NCBI GenBank assembly: GCA_015039365.1
Contig: WION01000259.1
Coordinates: 1 to 64,000 of the forward strand
Length of the DNA: 64,000 nt
Origin: Amanita rubescens
Taxonomy: Eukaryota > Basidiomycota > Agaricomycetes > Agaricales > Amanitaceae
Reading direction: 5' to 3'
Positions 7,286 through 52,543 of the stretch are shown here, in pieces. A program made the position numbers and the translations under genes. The notes beneath the pieces were generated by a model, which had not been told where the DNA came from, searched no databases, and saw only the letters and a list, made by a program, of their open reading frames with translations. The number at the start of each line of letters is the position of its first letter. Positions within the stretch are counted from its first letter, which is position 1.

Positions 7286-10200
7286 TTAGGCAGCTATAGG
7301 CCCCGATTGAGTTTCAGCTATCCGCATAATTTCCATAAGGGTGGTTTGCTCTTCCACACTAAGTGAAGTGGTGGCGGCCTGATATATAGGACCGTTTTGC
7401 ATTTGGAAAGCTACGTTGTTTGCGGCGTTAGTAATGCGAGGATCATCGGCAAAACGTAATGCGTACTTGTGAGCGCAGCCTTGAACGTAACGTAGGGGTC
7501 AACCACGTCAAGAGGACTGATGTATCCCAATTCCTCTTCAATGTCTTCCTCGTCTGAAGAGCCATCTGCGCTATCATCCCCACCCTGTGACTTCCCAGCA
7601 GCCTCGCGAAGGCGTGCACTCTGCGAAAAAGATGGTTAATATACATACCAGCAATTTATGCATCAAAGACGTTACCTCTTCCGCGAGCATCTCAAGGTAC
7701 GTGTCTTCTTCGTCCCAGACATCCTCTTAACGCCAGTTAGAGTAAGTCAATTTTAATTTGTTAAATAATTAATGCTTACCGTCATCTTCTTTCATATTCA
7801 ATAATTTATCATCGGTATCATCTTCATCGTCTAGTTCGGTCTCTAAAGCCTCTTCCAATTTCAGGCGATCTGTGTATGCGCGTTCAGATACAACGACGTT
7901 ACCGAATACGAGTCGCTTACATTCGACTGCCTTGGGCAGATCGTGGAATATTCTAATGATTCCACCAACGATAGCAGGCCAGCCATCCTTCACGTTGTCA
8001 GGGATAGCGCCGGGCGCAAGCTCGAGTAATGCACAAAGCGCGACGATGCTCAATTTCTTATCATGGACCCTCGGCAGCTTCGTCTCAGCGGACTTGATAA
8101 ATCCGAACCAGCTGTCGAAGAAGGTACGCGCCATGCCAGGGCGGAAGTTCTCAACAAAATGAAGTGTAGCCGAAGGATTGTACAATACGGCGTTGATGAG
8201 TACTTCGAGGTTGGCAAGTTTCGACGCCTTCGTTTGGGATTTATCAAAGTGATTTAATGCAGTGACAATAATATTTTGCAAGAACTATGGTGTATCGTTA
8301 TGTTGGCAGGTACAGAGCGGAAGAACTGGCACTCACTTCGTCAAGGTTGCCGCGCAGGTTCAATAACAGAGACTCTGCTAATTTGCATCCATTGACATGG
8401 TCGTTTTCGCCAAGCTGATTACTAGTCATAGCAGTTGTATAGATGTCAACCAACATCTGTTTATAATCTGTCCGAGTCTTAATTACGTCGTTGCCATATG
8501 ACACAAAGTTGTCAAGAGATGGCAGCATTTCTGAATGACAATTGGATTATCTACTACTTTGCAATGATCTAGATATGCGACTCACCGTCTAAAAAGTCAA
8601 CTGCATCTGATTTAAACAGCTTGTAAGTGTGCTCGAGGACAGGCCACATGTTCGGCGATATCGCCCGCATGCGGAAAGTAAGACTATCCACGAGATCGTA
8701 CATGTTGTCCAACAGCTCTGTTACGATCGAGGTATGGTTAAAGCTGTATAATGTACAAATTTCAACGAGAAGAAAAGGCTCACCTAATTGCTTGCTCTCA
8801 AGAGTAAAAACGATAATTGGAATTATAACTTCTTGAACTTGTGCAAGAATTTCCGGGGCATTGTCAATAGAGGAAACGACCTGATATCATGTATAAATTA
8901 AAGCTACTCAGAAGGTCCAGTGCGATGCATACTGTGCCAATAGTCTTTGCAATGTTCATAGCCGCATAGGTCTTGTCATCGTCGCCGTCGCCGACCTCGT
9001 AGTCGGTGGCGCTTGCAGCTTCCTCTTGGGCAATACTTTCCTTTGCAAGGCGCATATAGGACTCACACTACACGAATCCCCAATCAGTTTAGCGGATCTC
9101 GCTATATTCAGAAAAGCGAACGAACCAAGCGAGCCGCAAGTTGAGTAGCAACGGGCAATAGCTCAGTCTGGAAGCATTCGACCATCACTTCCATGCTGTG
9201 GTTCAAGATCTCCAGATCAGTTTCATCCGATAGTTTGAGGAGGTCTATGACAGGTGGAATGGTTGGCGGCGCTAATTCTGGGGGGGGAAGAGAAGCGCGT
9301 ACCTTGGATAACTTTGCCTACTTGGGGTGCAACAGCTGTCTTGACCGATTCATTATTAACCACTAGTTCAGTAACGGCTAACGCTGCGTGCACCCGAACG
9401 GGCAGTTGAGCATCATCCAGTAGAGTGATAACTGCCCTGTACTGGATCGCAAGATTCTAAGACCCGGACAGGACAGTTAGGTAAACGGTATCAAACAGGT
9501 AAAGAACCTGAGTCACCTCCTCAGTTGACCAGTTTAGACCAGCTTTCGTAACTGTTGCGAGAATCTCACACGCCTAAAAGTAAATTCATATATCTTGTGA
9601 CCGCGTATAGGTTGATAGGTGTGAGACTCACTACTGCACGAAGATAGGGTTCACTGCTCATGTACTCGGGAACGACAAACTGCATGACAAATTGCTCCAT
9701 TTTGTTCTTGACGTCGGGATGTGCTAACATCCAAGGTCCGAGCGCCGCAGTCATATTCAAGGCACCAAATCTCTGAGGAGGGGAAGCGTTCCTAAAAGGA
9801 TTAGTCCATTGGACGGGACGGAAAATAGAAAAGGGTACTCACGAGCCTAGGACATTGTTGATGAAGGTGAGAGTCGGCAGGAACGTTGCCTTGGTGCGAT
9901 TCGTGGCAAGAGAGTAAAGGAATGTTGTAGCCGCAGAGACAGGAGAGTTAAAGCTTTCGTACTCATCTGTACCGAAAGAATTGCTCATTATTCATTTGAC
10001 TTATAAAAAGAACTTTGACGTACCGATTGAAGCACGAAGGTATTCCACTGGATCGCTCTCCCATGATGATTGTTTTGAGGCGTTGAATGCAAGTTGGGGG
10101 AAGACAAAGGCCGAAACGAGATGCTCGACGTGAGGTTTGAGAAGAGTCCAAGTTGATTTTGGTTTAATGCTGACAATGATATCATCGGTGATTGTCTCAA

Positions 10201-13124: not shown

Positions 13125-16100
13125 ATGACAGATTCCCTCAATATGGATGAATCAAGTAAGCAAAAAATCATGTCCCAACTCCCAAATTGACTTGCAAGCA
13201 GATGTCAGGATGCTCATGGATCAATATAAATGCCCCCACTTCCGTATTCTTGTCATAGGAAGGGCCAATGCTGGAAAAACAACTATTCTTGAGAAAGTCT
13301 GTGGTGTAGCTCAGGGAACTAAACCCATAATCTATGATCAGAATGGTGATGAGCTCAGTTTTGAGCCTAAGAAGAAACTTTTTGCCAAAGTTAAGCACCT
13401 CCTTGGAGGGAAAATAGAACCTTCATATACACATTTAACACCATCAATTGAGGTGGGTGAATTATACATTGAATGGTGTGCTCCAGCTTATTGGATGCTA
13501 GAGAGGAATACATGACATTGAGCACCAGATTACATACCCTGGAAGCAACTTCATCTTCCATGATTCACAGGGCTTTGAGGCAGGTGCAAGTAAAGAGGTG
13601 GAGATTGTTTGGAATTTCATTGAGAAGAGATCTGCTGCAACTGAGCTGAGTGACCAGTTGCATGCAATTTGGTATCTGTTCATTAATCATACATAAACAT
13701 GACCAGCTGATAAAAAGAATTCTACAGGTATTGCATACCCATGGAGGGTTCTCGTCCTCTTTTGTCTGCAGAACTTGAGTTCTTTAAAAAAGGAGCAGGA
13801 AATGGTAAACACTACAGCCAACCACCCAAATTCTGCTCTTACACAATTTACTCTGTAAATGGCACATCTGCAGTTCCTTTGATCACTATATTCACCAAGT
13901 TTGATGCTCAAATAATCCAAGAATATGCCAAATTGATGGATGTGGAGGGGAGGAGTGAAAGATGGAACAAGGCCAGAGCAAATGCTCAGAACATTTTCAA
14001 GGAGGTTTATCTTTCTAAAGTCTTGAATGCTAACCACCCTCCAAGAGGCTATGTGAAACTGGAAGGTATGCAAGTGATAGAAATTTATGCTGTATGTTTT
14101 AATGAGATAGACCCATTTTAACAGACATGCATATTGCAGAGAGCAATTGCCCTGAATTGACTGAGCAAACTGCCAATGCAATTGATGATACCTTACTACA
14201 GGATCTATTCATCTCAACTCAGAGGAACAACATTAACCTTTGTGTCAAAGCAGCAATTCAGTGAGACTTACCTTTAATCTTCTGACTTTAAACTATAACA
14301 GTCTTCAGACATGTCTTAAATTCAAAAATCAAACTTACATTTATGGATGTTGTTTACATTGTTGCCACCAGGTTTCCACATTATTGGGTGCATTCAACAA
14401 TTGCTTGGTACTAATGTGAAAAGGCTTAATCATGAACAGACTCCTCAAAATGTAGGTTTTGATATGATCACAGAAGCCATTTCTTCTAAAACTGTGTAAT
14501 AGGATGTGAGTGTTGTGTATACCATTGTGCAAAGATATATTTGGTTGAACAACCCAATCAGAATCCTGTAGGTGAAACTCCATTTTTCTGTATGCAATTT
14601 CAAAAACAATTTTGTATTGGGTCAAGGCCATGGTCAGTAATGCCACCAAGGTTTCTGCTACTGAATCTAATGATATGGATAGACTCAGCTTTGGGCAAGT
14701 AATATTGACATAATGTTTGACAAGCTGTAATCCAATAACCAATAGGATGTGAGCAACATTGCACTTTTTTCCTGACTGCCTATCACATTGTGCTATGTAC
14801 AAATGACCAACAGCATGTGAGTGGCATTGCACTTTTCTCTGCCTAATAGTTATACTAAACAATTTTCCCATGACCAATAGAGAGTAAGTAGTTCTGCACT
14901 TCTTTTTCTGGCAAGCAGTTCTAAAACTTATGGCTGTTCCATCAACAACATTAGGATGTGGGTGACACTACTGTATATCTATTTGTCTCAGATCTTATTC
15001 TATGGCTGTAGACTGTGAGTGGCATGGTTTTTGACACACAGTCCCATTGTAATCACCTCTGACCAATAGGCTGTGAGTAAATGGCATTGCCTTCTTGCAC
15101 CAATCCTATAATTATGATCAATAGATTGTGAGGACATATTCTGTCTTGTCCTTACTTCAATAACTCATCCCATGACCTACAGAAAGTGAGTAACACTGCC
15201 ATGATAACCTCATTACTCTTGTCATGATATGTAAATAGAAAGTGAGTGACACTACACTGGCAATTTTATCAAAACATTTCAAACTGTGACCAACAGGGAG
15301 TATGTGATAATGCACTGTACTCTGCGAGACAGTCTCCTTAGGGCTTGCTGCATGACCAATAGAAAGTGAGTGACACTGCAGCCTTTTTTAGTCCCAACAC
15401 ATCTCATCCAATGACTGATAGAAAGTGAGTGACACTGCATTGTTGTTTTTCACTCATAGCATCTCAACTCAGGGAGTGAGTGATACTGCACTGTATTCAT
15501 CCCAGCAATCTCTTCATATCATCAATAGTTTGTAGTAAGTCACATTACAGTGTTTTTTCAGGAATGTTTCAGTACATTGCACAACAGGTTGTGAGTGACA
15601 CTGCATCATCTCTCAGTCCCATCTCACAACCAATAGGAAGTGAGCCTTGACATTGCATTGTCTTTTGCCACTAATCTCAGTACATCATGAATTTCAGGTA
15701 GTCCTATATGATGGCCAACAGAAGGCAAGTAACACTAGATTATCTTATTCCTGGCAATATCATTTTATTTCATAACTAATAGAAAGTCACGAGTGTCATT
15801 GTACTGTCTTTTTTCATGATGTCTCAATGCATCTCACCTCATGACCACTAGTATGTGAGTGATAAGGCACCATTTCCTACAAGATCTCATCCCCTGATCA
15901 ACAGCATGTAAGTGACACTTCCTTGTCTTGTGGACAGTCACCATGTATCTCATACCACCATAACTAACAGTTTGTGAGTGACACTGCATTATTCATCTTT
16001 TGCCAGGCTGTCTCAGCACATATCATTATACCAATGATACCAAGACAACAGTGGGTGAGTCACTGTATTGTCCTTTACCAGGATATCCCAGTGCATCTTA

Positions 16101-16901
16101 TACCATGATCACAGTGTGTGAGTGACACCTCAATAACTGTACATTCCATCACTTCTCATCCCATGTCCAGTGTGTGAGTCATGACACTGCATTTACTGTA
16201 TTTCCAGGTGATCTCATCTGATCAAGACCACTAGTTGGTGAGTGAAGTGCTGCACTGTCTCTTCTGAACATGTCATGACCCATTATCAACAGGCAGTGAG
16301 TCACATTCTCATGGAATTTCAACATTCTTGCATGAACTTTCCATCAGAACGTAAGTCAGCATACAGCCCTCCCTTTTCCATTCATCTGAAATAAATATCA
16401 GTTGGTATTGTACCAAAGTTCTTCAATAGCTGCTACATGATTAAAAATTTCCCAACTTGTCCAAGACTGTATGTGCACTTATCAAGTGTGATTCAAAGTC
16501 TTATTGCTGCTTGTTCTTAGCTAGAGCTTTCAGTGTTTCAAAATGAAGGAACTGAAGGAATGCCAACCAGATTTTCAGTGACTGTAAGCATTATGGTTGT
16601 TCATTGATGTTCAATTAATGCAAATGGCATAACCAGCCTCCAGCTTGCCAAGTATTAGTTGGTAATGATTCATATTCCATTTATTTAAATATGTGGCTAA
16701 CATATCAAAGCAACTATTATCATTTGCAAGCTATCATTTCCCATAACAAAGCATTTTGGAGAAGCAATCACAGATGCTTTTGACCAGTTCAAGGAGCAAG
16801 GCTATATGGAGAAACTGAAGAATCAAATTACCTCTGACTCCTTACCTTCCAATCGTCAGATGTTGACTGCATTCCTGTATGATCAAATCATTCAGATGTA
16901 A
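13125..16901 (+). CDS. P-loop GTPase-like protein with a single-codon exon array
   Basis: Predicted G-domain protein of a type common in Agaricomycetes; cellular role unknown. Exons 13125-13155, 13202-13452, 13502-13671, 13728-13804, 13874-14065 and 14125-14260 join in phase. They show G1 GRANAGKT, G3 DSQG (FHDSQGFEAG) and G4 TKFD (ITIFTKFD). Likely continuing exons are 14372-14407, 14503-14505, 14562-14567 and 14638-14698. Then come about 29 exons of 3 nt (14746-16468), a 63-nt exon at 16521-16583 (LELSVFQNEGTEGMPTRFSV...), another 3-nt exon at 16659-16661, and a last exon 16752-16901 (HFGEAITDAFDQFKEQGYME...) ending in TAA. The total is about 421 aa with no stop. Sure of the G domain; the 3' half is inferred from splice signals and phase. 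An alternative is that the gene ends near 14.5 kb and the array is non-coding. Confidence 0.68.
14746..16468 (+). repeat. Array of ~29 intron-like units with 3-nt exons
   Basis: Diverged tandem units, mostly 46-82 nt. Each starts GTGAGTGACACTGCA or similar and ends near ATGACCAATAG or ATCAACAG. Exactly 3 nt then precede the next GT donor. The 3-nt pieces begin at 14746, 14814, 14881, 14955, 15012, 15070, 15125, 15183, 15239, 15297, 15363, 15422, 15473, 15529, 15588, 15637, 15722, 15783, 15852, 15905, 15971, 16052, 16115, 16171, 16235, 16293, 16348, 16402 and 16466. The piece at 15529 may be 6 nt (TTTGTA). The unit before 15722 is followed by a GC donor (GCAAGT), and that after 15783 by an odd GTCACG. 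CTGAC/CTAAC-like branch sites often sit 5-15 nt before the acceptor. Intron bodies have diverged, whereas the splice ends persist. Confidence 0.75.
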
Positions 16902-50874: not shown

Positions 50875-52543
50875 CTACGAACGATTGTCTGGTAGCGCAA
50901 TCGAGGCAGCTGGGGGACTTGACACGTTTATATTAGGGGCTGGCCCAATCAGCCGCAGCAACAACTCCATCCGTCGCTGCTGGTCAAGGACTTGCTGTTT
51001 CAACTCGTCTTGTTCTTCCTTCATCCTGCGCTCTTTCTCGTCTTGTGCTTTCTTCATCCTGCGCTCTTTCTCGTCTTGTTCTTTCTTCATCCTGCGCTCT
51101 TTCTCGTCTTGTTCTTCCTTCATCCTGCGTTCTTTCTCCTCTTGTTCTTTCTTCATCACGCGCTCTTTCTCTTCTTGTTCTTTCTTCATCCTGCGCTCTT
51201 TCTCCTCTTGTTCTTTCCTTAGCTGACTCCTCAACCGCTGTTCATTCACCTCTTGCTCTTTCTTCAGCTCCTTCCTAAGCCGCCGTTCCCTCTCCTCCTG
51301 CTCCCTCCTGAGCCGTCGCTCTCTCTCCTCCTGATCCTTCTTCAACTGCTGCTCTTTCTCCTCCTGCTCCTTCCTCATTCGTCGCTCCCTCTCCTCCTGA
51401 TCCTTCTTCATTTGACTCGTCAGCTGTCGTTCCCTATCGTCTTGCTCCTTGGAAAACCTTTTTCGAATTTCCTCTTTACTTCTCCACTCATACTCCGCAC
51501 GCTAGCGATCTCTGTCAACGCCGCGGAAAAGATGATACGAGAATTCGAACCTTTTCCTCCATCAAGCGCCTCCCCTTCATAAAATTGTCCCATATTCTCT
51601 GCACTTGATTTGGATCCCTCCGGTAAACTGGAAAGATTTTAAAGCTCCCCGTCGAAGCCTGGCGCCATTTCCTATCTCCTATTGTAGAAAGGGTGCCGTT
51701 ATCATGCTCTTGAGCCCACATTTCCAGGGTCGCAAAAACGGTGTCTGCATGCCAGTAGCATTGACTGGCGAGTATCGAGTATATGTCACTTTCATTATAC
51801 AGGACGTCAACCAAGACCATGAGGTCGCAAAGGTTCGGACGCCGGGTAGGATCGCCACTGAGCGTAAGGGTTTTGAGAAGCAGAGCATTCTTCGGGTGGC
51901 TCTCTATTCTGGTTACGGCATCCGCTGCGAGGTGCTGTTGCAAACTAATGCCAGAAGAGCGAGGTAGGGAGCTCTGCGATAAGCGGTGTGTCTTGTGCTC
52001 GAGGGAAGCGGAACTTTTAGTCATGCGCGCCTTCAACGACGAAACGGATTTTGCTAATAGCGAACCACGGGGAGAACTGCGAGAGGAACCGCCAGAAGAA
52101 CCGATATGCGACTGGGCCACAGAAGATCGGGTAGCACTGGTACTCGCCGTCCCTGTCGACGACGGTACTGAGCTCATCGAATCGCTATCCTTGCGTTCGC
52201 CTGCTGATCGATCAAATCTCAGCTCTAGTTTGCCGTTCTCCTTGCTGGAGAACTCGCAGATAACGTATTCGTGCTCGTTCATGGTACCCTTCTCTTTGAC
52301 ATGATGCGCCTTGTCCAGTCGATAACCATTGAGTTCCTCCCATATCTCGACGCTTTCTGAATCCCAGGGTCGTATGCCCATATGGACGAGTCGGATCCAC
52401 GACCTGACCGACATTTCTTCGCCAAGGGGAGGGAGGGATTTGGTACCGGCTGCGGTACCCAGAGAATTCATGATGGAAGCTGGGAGAACGGACGACATGA
52501 GGGCACGGAGGCGCTTCCGCTTGTTCTTGAAGATAGGCGGCAT
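50875..52543 (-). CDS. Charged coiled-coil protein of unknown function
   Basis: Two exons joined at MEEK/RAEYEWRSKEE across a 48-nt intron near 51505-51552. The N-terminal ~330 residues have a globular segment (SVRSWIRLVHMGIRPWDSES, TMNEHEYVICEF), a Ser/Thr-rich linker, and a second folded segment (DLMVLVDVLYNESDIYSILA, CYWHADTVFATLEMWAQEH) near RKWRQASTGSFKIFPVYRRD. The C-terminal ~190 residues are a highly charged coiled coil of 11-residue repeats around KKEQEEKERRM, ending QQRRMELLLRLIG and a short tail. I recall similar proteins from Rhizoctonia-like fungi but know no function. The repeats make exact length polymorphism likely. Confidence 0.75.
51000..51420 (-). repeat. 33-bp coding minisatellite (hendecad repeats)
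   Basis: Plus-strand unit beginning CATCCTGCGCTCTTTCTC recurs every 33 bp from about 51022, cleanest up to 51220, degenerating towards 51420. 33 bp equals 11 codons, so each unit adds one hendecad of the coiled coil without shifting the frame. Confidence 0.85.

Follow-up and report, generated by a model that had tools for sequence, protein, structure and literature searches.

The window gene and its array of triplets

The window, i.e. the whole 64,000-nucleotide (nt) stretch of Amanita rubescens DNA analysed here (GenBank assembly GCA_015039365.1, contig WION01000259.1, positions 1 to 64,000), contains a plus-strand gene of a GTPase family in which the exons of the GTPase part are followed by a long series of candidate exons of only 3 nt, and then by the exons of a C-terminal part (Table 1). 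The GTPase part (13125..14260) encodes the P-loop GRANAGKT in translation. The gene gives a complete reading of 461 amino acids (aa) without an internal stop, its 3' end having been corrected by homology to P0052, an intron-free homologue described below.

With weak donors allowed, the array consists of 28 triplets between 14746 and 16404, and a lone triplet is present at 14503, which agrees with the 29 single-codon units reported in the original prediction, made from the letters of the window. Immediately upstream of each triplet is an AG 3' splice end, and immediately downstream a GT donor (GC in one case). The introns between the triplets are 46–82 nt long, the same range as had been given for most units, and the intron after the last triplet is 116 nt long; in the gene model used, the introns on either side of the triplet at 14503 measure 95 and 132 nt. 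The unit at 15529 can indeed be read as either 3 or 6 nt. Strong sites of the form [CT]AG-N(k)-GT[AG][AT]G between 14701 and 16400 numbered 23 at k = 3, and for the remaining values of k between 0 and 12 there were 0–2 each. Joined in phase 0, the phase set by the exon at 14638-14698, the triplets read DHRDTAIKKGKKGFVEKKYHFWCCLANL without a stop, as predicted, whereas the other two registers contain three stops and, inside the array, none, respectively. The units have diverged from one another (mean intron identity, 0.603; 19 units).

At the 3' end, the predicted 63-nt exon was retained, whereas a predicted 3-nt exon TTG at 16659 and a 150-nt terminal exon were replaced by the 25-nt exon and the longer terminal exon of Table 1. 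At the 5' side of the array, the exon starting at 14309 has two possible ends, 14387 (donor gtgcat) and 14407 (donor gtacta), and the end of the 61-nt exon, DRLSFGQ, resembles WFGQ of P0053, as judged by eye. The deposited A. rubescens protein P0084 (F5887DRAFT_901914, 252 aa) ends at the end of the GTPase part, before the array, and is very likely the model of the window gene; the array would explain why this model stops early. Elsewhere in the window, 33-bp tandem repeats at 51004-51410 are unrelated to the arrays.

Table 1. Exons and candidate exons of the GTPase gene in the window. For the single-codon exons, the basis is the AG acceptor/GT donor pattern in the sequence.
Feature	Position	Strand	Basis or remark
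GTPase-part exon	13125-13155	+	translation; tblastn by P0007/P0052
GTPase-part exon	13202-13452	+	translation; tblastn by P0007/P0052
GTPase-part exon	13502-13671	+	translation; tblastn by P0007/P0052
GTPase-part exon	13728-13804	+	translation; tblastn by P0007/P0052
GTPase-part exon	13874-14065	+	translation; tblastn by P0007/P0052
GTPase-part exon	14125-14260	+	translation; tblastn by P0007/P0052
Exon QHVLNSKIKLTFMDVVYIVATRFPHYW...	14309..14407	+	homology to ...KFPHLWV of P0007
Isolated 3-nt exon candidate GAT	14503..14505	+	splice-site pattern; candidate only
61-nt exon ending ...DRLSFGQ	14638..14698	+	gene reading; fixes phase 0 of array
GAT (D)	14746..14748	+	
CAT (H)	14814..14816	+	
AGA (R)	14881..14883	+	
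GAT (D)	14955..14957	+	
ACT (T)	15012..15014	+	
GCT (A)	15070..15072	+	
ATT (I)	15125..15127	+	
AAA (K)	15183..15185	+	
AAA (K)	15239..15241	+	
GGA (G)	15297..15299	+	
AAA (K)	15363..15365	+	
AAA (K)	15422..15424	+	
GGA (G)	15473..15475	+	
TTT (F), or 6-nt TTTGTA	15529..15534	+	two possible donors
GTT (V)	15588..15590	+	
GAA (E)	15637..15639	+	
AAG (K)	15722..15724	+	GC donor
AAA (K)	15783..15785	+	weak donor gtcacg
TAT (Y)	15852..15854	+	
CAT (H)	15905..15907	+	
TTT (F)	15971..15973	+	
TGG (W)	16052..16054	+	
TGT (C)	16115..16117	+	
TGT (C)	16171..16173	+	
TTG (L)	16235..16237	+	
GCA (A)	16293..16295	+	
AAC (N)	16348..16350	+	
TTG (L)	16402..16404	+	donor gtattg; closes array
63-nt exon LELSVFQNEGTEGMPTRFSVT	16521..16583	+	resembles LPELFSVF... 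of P0052, by eye
25-nt exon PPACQVLV(A)	16637..16661	+	resembles ...TACQVL... of P0052, by eye
Terminal exon ATIIICKLSFPI...DQIIQM with stop	16711..16901	+	tblastn by P0052 residues 397-461

Arrays across the genome and their host family

The A. rubescens assembly to which the window belongs (75.7 Mb) was scanned for the same organization, with the reversed pattern as a control; the genome-wide counts include haplotype copies. The unit-end pattern gave 159 matches, compared with one for the control. Strict pairs, i.e. two consecutive units with perfect GTGAGT donors, numbered 4,512 with an exon of exactly 3 nt and none in the control, whereas those with a 6-nt exon were equally rare in both (10 and 10). 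The pair TGG-intron-TTT, which is typical of array starts and occurs internally in a few cases, was found 96 times and never in the control. In 19 loci (182,664 bases), 297 strict pairs were identified at exon length 3 and none at each of the other lengths from 0 to 15. These loci contain 914 decoded single-codon exons, and a very rough extrapolation from them suggests about 14,000 such exons in the whole assembly. Over all loci read, the longest run of single-codon exons is 76. The introns in the arrays have a median length of 61 nt (5–95% range, 50–74). According to the unit consensus, a complete acceptor and a complete donor, with 3 nt between them, belong to every strict unit; in addition to the letters demanded by the pattern, TGACCAA is favoured upstream of the acceptor and TGACA downstream of the donor.

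With the pattern present genome-wide, the possibility of a single odd gene was rejected. Arrays of short exons of any length were also rejected, as only 3-nt exons were found in the fetched loci and 6-nt units elsewhere are rare. A few tandem 6-nt (two-codon) exons, CAATCT, CAATAT, and AAATCT, are present at C190:186273-188421 and C229:26233-28449. Two loci on different contigs, L037 and L038 (C61 and C184), differ by four substitutions and one 3-nt indel over approximately 4.84 kb, with one of the substitutions lying in a triplet (CGA/CAA), and are probably haplotype copies; their differences are too few for a between-haplotype test of diversification to be informative. Judging from match spacing, C1/C170 and C35/C105 may be further haplotype pairs.

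The GTPase query gave at least 361 exon-by-exon tblastn matches in the assembly. Twenty loci, those at the head of the list of intron-end pattern matches (contigs C1-C56), were fetched; in 19 of the resulting 21 locus-strand rows the array is preceded by GTPase exons, and in 18 it is followed by the C-terminal exon. The two rows without a GTPase are the plus strand of L011, whose array is shared with L010, and L016, which lies at a contig end. In L015, approximately 1.8 kb of unrelated-looking sequence (about 7739-9332) separates the array end from the C-terminal exon and is possibly an insertion.

The GTPase was compared with the TRAFAC-type GTPases (MMR_HSR1 and septin/IRG-like folds). The Pfam profile PF01926 scored 20.7 bits on it, below its cut-off of 21.9. 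Foldseek gave weak matches to GTPase folds, including BDLP, IniA, IIGP1/Irga6, and septins, with a best E-value of 2.1e-05 and TM-scores of 0.20–0.34 of the query among the 50 matches listed. PADLOC gave one match (E = 0.014), which was not used. The N-termini (MAPTIGAPSLNADE... and MTDSLNMDESN...) have no obvious signal peptide, as judged by eye only. The AlphaFold2 model of P0052, based on 19 sequences (mean predicted local distance difference test [pLDDT], 71; predicted template modelling score [pTM], 0.60), shows a GTPase domain and a helical C-terminal part, with a stretch of low confidence between them; residues 293-356, where the array lies, have pLDDT values below 50.

Evidence on splicing and translation of the triplets

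In phase 0, no stop was found in 774 strict triplets, compared with a mean of 46 and a minimum of 28 in 5,000 column shuffles, whereas stops number 96 and 9 across 724 junctions in the other two registers. When all loci, overlapping and haplotype ones included, were decoded under relaxed criteria, there was likewise no stop among 1,257 residues. Genome-wide, TAA or TGA is the first triplet of only 2 of the 4,512 strict pairs, compared with about 246 expected from the base frequencies of strict triplets. These numbers bear on the idea that the arrays are decaying pseudogenes left by a burst of gene duplication. The high copy number (with haplotype copies), the displaced C-terminal exon of L015, and the two TGA triplets in strict pairs speak for such decay, but the stop-free relaxed decoding, the favoured TGACCAA and TGACA motifs, and the full-length open homologues P0052, P0053, and P0121 argue against it, and we regard it as very improbable.

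Many paralogues share a 17-codon entry motif, WFEQGKKETDREIEYDG, encoded with one codon per exon (TGG TTT GAA CAA GGA AAA AAA GAA ACA GAT AGA GAA ATT GAG TAT GAT GGA, with small variations). When the first 15 positions of the motif are compared among eight loci (L010, L012, L015, L024, L025, L034, L035, and L036), the codons are 0.906 identical and the intron bodies 0.752, the codons being ahead at 13 of the 15 positions; the differing codon pairs comprise 7 synonymous and 98 non-synonymous ones. In these alignments the codon identity shows constraint, and is not a test of the non-synonymous to synonymous rate ratio (dN/dS). Left out of the comparison were L017, L018, and L026, in which one motif exon is missing in the decoding, L023, which has diverged, L033, which coincides with L010, and the paralogues in which WF is followed by other residues. 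Arrays in L009, L013, L019, L020, and L032 start with WFE or WFR and continue with other residues.

The arrays use 47 codons, and among the 939 codons of the 19 loci and the window the third base is A in 474, T in 385, G in 75, and C in 5, i.e. A or T in 859. In the ordinary GTPase exons of the window gene, the corresponding numbers are T 99, A 73, G 58, and C 55. A triplet directly follows an acceptor and directly precedes a donor, so that all three of its bases belong to both splice-site contexts, and this double role may account for the narrow choice of third base. On this A/T bias, codon choice in the arrays looks shaped by splicing, which would tie the splicing code to protein composition.

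Four open reading frames (ORFs) without introns on JGI contigs of 1–2 kb (P0007, P0027, P0052, and P0053) cover the whole 269-residue GTPase query, and seven ORFs (P0007, P0035, P0043, P0052, P0053, P0079, and P0121) run well past the GTPase. The intron-free ORFs are likely to come from another Amanita. Residues resembling those of the array are contiguous in some of them: WFEQGKKEADREIKHDG is divided among 17 separate exons in L015, whereas P0007 contains WFEKGKKESDREIEYDG without interruption, and P0043 and P0035 are similar. P0007 reads ...FPHLWVDRAVTNEQLSETKWFEKGKKESDREIEYDGG..., and L015 reads VGRE-E-MARNKDLSETE followed by the single-codon exons WFEQGKKEADREIKHDG; the entry exons of L015 before the array were read by eye and against P0007. 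In L010, L012, L018, L024, L025, and the window, genomic matches to P0052 break across the array, ending at residue 293 (305 in the window) and resuming beyond it at 393-397. A check of whether homologues carry the segment of about 30 residues that the original prediction had expected between the flanking exons came out mostly in favour of the prediction: P0052, P0053, and P0121 have 59–77 residues at the array position, whereas P0087 (A. rubescens F5887DRAFT_1280464, a deposited model of 407 aa) has none. Two distant JGI homologues, P0117 and P0119, have low-complexity stretches rich in H/Y/E/L/R or E/R/L/N at about the same place. This residue set is much like that of the arrays, and on this resemblance similar arrays may exist outside Amanita.

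P0052 and P0053 are 95.2% identical in the GTPase and 94.6% identical in the C-terminus but only 43.0% identical in the linker between them, which is 77 and 60 aa long, respectively, so that the linker varies at the protein level. A difference lying mainly in the linker would also be expected if the triplets were real exons that are mostly skipped in varying combinations, yielding many linker isoforms per gene, and any such skip would keep the frame, all units being symmetric phase-0 exons. However, these two proteins also show a divergence of about 5% in the parts outside the linker and therefore represent different genes or alleles, and P0007 and P0035 read 58 and 56 codons, respectively, P0007 with the whole entry motif. 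Extensive skipping therefore seems rather unlikely to us.

Two homologues appear to run from array codons into an array intron. P0035 has 56 residues from WF and then the tail VCDIAQFSECQSHLNYCVT (starting with VCDIAQFSECQSH...), in which 10 of the first 13 residues match the L014 intron VSDIAQFCERQSH read in frame 0 from its first base. The score of this match was 46, compared with 38 for the best of 100 shuffled intron sets and, with the 45-residue tail, 38 and 39 for the best off-frame real introns. P0007 has 58 residues from W to I, followed by (I)VRFHFRGSPNPTSC, which matches an intron after a terminal ATT with a score of 41, compared with 33 for the best of 300 shuffled sets; in this stretch P0007 lacks a stop that is present in the A. 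rubescens introns matching it best. With both ORFs entering an intron of the array type, it is very probable that their source species carries these introns at the same boundaries between codons. That the upstream introns have been removed and the next one is still present fits a 5'-to-3' order of splicing, without proving it.

These data also bear on whether the stretch is an intronic minisatellite that leaves as one large intron, so that the triplets are never exons. Tandem repeats of such unit length do occur within introns generally, and the deposited models either end before the array (P0084) or jump it (P0087, which may instead be a copy without an array). On the other side stand the stop-free phase 0, the greater conservation of motif codons than of introns, the contiguous occurrence of similar residues in intron-free homologues, the read-through into single array introns, and a spacing that stays at 3 nt while intron lengths vary. 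A single large intron was rejected on the stop statistics, the codon conservation, and the intron read-through, and we consider the minisatellite explanation extremely improbable.

Evolution of the arrays, meaning, and comparison with known systems

In L015, intron identity reaches at least 95% (mean, 97.9%) in 330 pairs, and the codons preceding these introns are 46.7% identical, compared with 44.8% array-wide; among 92 pairs of identical introns, 74 carry different codons. Codons and introns thus appear able to evolve in opposite ways, with conserved codons in the entry motif and variable codons in the core. The block CTT-CAA-AAA is present in three copies in L015, two of which have the same distinctive introns, which indicates that multi-unit duplication happens and supports the earlier proposal that an intron plus one codon has been duplicated in tandem. 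Block duplication as the whole cause of the codon pattern in L015 was not supported by the intron identities given below.

Near-identical introns around unrelated codons would also be explained if the codons had once stood together in a single ordinary exon and a mobile intron of the introner-like kind had been inserted between all of them, the introns then being young and the codons old. The near-identical introns of L015 and an intron consensus that looks common to the loci by eye agree with such an origin. It requires, however, an insertion at every codon boundary, in one phase and at no other spacing; in addition, L015 has two copies of the three-unit block that share their distinctive introns, and the arrays are confined to one gene family where this can be judged (20 loci fetched). 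We consider such an origin unlikely.

We are confident that, in the window gene and in many siblings from one expanded A. rubescens GTPase family, tandem introns of about 60 nt separate triplets that are each predicted to be one whole codon, spliced in turn into a probably disordered linker. The proposal that the triplets are spliced single-codon exons is supported by the paralogues, the homologues resembling complementary DNA (cDNA), the absence of stops, and the read-through in two homologues, and very probably they are translated as a disordered and hypervariable linker. This linker would lie between the GTPase domain and the predicted helical C-terminal domain. Splicing probably proceeds from 5' to 3': removal of one intron would attach its triplet to the growing upstream exon, so that the next donor would no longer lie beside a tiny exon. 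Every unit is an intron plus a phase-0 codon, so duplication or loss of a unit, or skipping of an exon, keeps the frame, and such frame-neutral units would let the linker grow, shrink, and change one residue at a time. Two zones may be distinguished, namely the entry motif WFEQGKKETDREIEYDG, in which codons are more conserved than introns (eight loci), and a core with varying codons, which is clear in L015. The core probably evolves through tandem duplication of one to several units, combined either with diversifying selection or with unusually fast change at the codons, two alternatives between which the data do not decide.

Several observations weigh against this reading. No A. rubescens cDNA was found, the best identities being 87% to the L015 GTPase query and 86% to Amanita models, and the intron-free ORFs are likely to be transcripts, as judged from missing introns in ORFs on 1–2 kb contigs. 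A protein search with array words gave 21 candidates, none of them at E <= 10. P0079 continues past the GTPase without the motif, P0087 joins the GTPase to the C-terminus without a linker, and for five other tails (P0043, P0027, P0066, P0055, and P0089) the matches did not stand out from the shuffled control. In the window, the array entry (14388-14637) fits more than one exon model, and the array has neither the WF motif nor a close cDNA. The displaced C-terminal exon of L015 means that some copies may be broken. TAA or TGA after AG creates a competing donor, so the shortage of stops may be due in part to splicing; the codon TAT, by which GTATGT arises, is nonetheless common (34 of 939 codons). 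The codon variation rests mainly on L015: among the 11 arrays tested for near-identical-intron pairs, L015 included, L023 has 13 (8 with different codons), L017 and L026 have one each (with a different and the same codon, respectively), and seven have none. Within L015, intron identity is 0.910 in repeated-block pairs (n = 9), 0.909 in other same-codon pairs, and 0.885 in pairs with different codons.

Speculatively, the linker may serve the GTPase as a variable segment for recognition or tethering. It is possible, and we put this forward tentatively, that the tandem introns act as recombination arms around the codons, so that a hypervariable segment is rewritten residue by residue without loss of frame, with possibly many isoforms per gene through in-frame skipping. 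If true, the diversification of codons between introns that remain alike would make this a dedicated diversity generator, e.g. for self/non-self or partner recognition. To our knowledge, exons of 1–3 nt are rare single cases, and this genome appears to hold thousands of correctly phased single-codon exons in head-to-tail series. The arrays would allow the pairing of splice sites and the order of splicing to be tested in an extreme natural case, and would show a route to new protein sequence in which single residues are added with introns as spacers.

Among the papers listed in searches of open-licence full texts in PubMed Central (PMC), none describes consecutive single-codon exons or Amanita GTPase arrays. 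HET-E-type concerted repeats are alike save at a few hypervariable codons; there the repeat is coding, whereas in the A. rubescens arrays the homogeneous part is the intron. Schistosoma micro-exon genes (MEGs) have many tiny exons, mostly multiples of three, are hard to annotate, and encode variable, secreted proteins; their exons are mostly 15 bp (range, 6–81 bp, or 3–81 bp in the abstract), number 10–20 per gene, and are separated by introns of 0.1–5 kb (PMC10526429). The array exons are likewise short and symmetric (3 nt, phase 0, up to 76 in a chain), but they are all 3 nt long, with introns of about 61 nt, in a host gene of a GTPase family. The aphid bicycle and megacycle genes evolve fast and have many small exons of one phase, with more than 100 microexons in megacycle; the internal exons of bicycle genes, which are implicated as plant gall effectors, are almost all of phase 2 (PMC9168663). 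Unlike these, the array exons are of phase 0, encode one codon each, and lie between tandem homologous introns. Single tiny exons are spliced in Arabidopsis (1 nt; PMC4674806), Fusarium CYP621A (1 nt; PMC12940212), and Drosophila hth (3 bp; PMC7392893), with one such exon per gene there and arrays in A. rubescens.

Many similar introns within one fungal genome are known from introner-like elements and proliferating stwintrons (PMC4457414, PMC8469720). Unlike introner-like elements, the arrays in the 20 loci fetched are not scattered over unrelated genes, GTPase exons lying upstream in 19 of the 21 rows. Stwintrons sit at novel gene positions (PMC8469720), whereas the A. rubescens introns lie head-to-tail with a fixed 3-nt exon; moreover, in a stwintron one intron interrupts a splice element of another, whereas the strict array units have complete splice sites of their own. 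Intron gain by tandem genomic duplication has been described as one case in one gene (PMC4974935). This source of introns would be shared by the A. rubescens arrays, in which the unit carries a codon and is repeated dozens of times.

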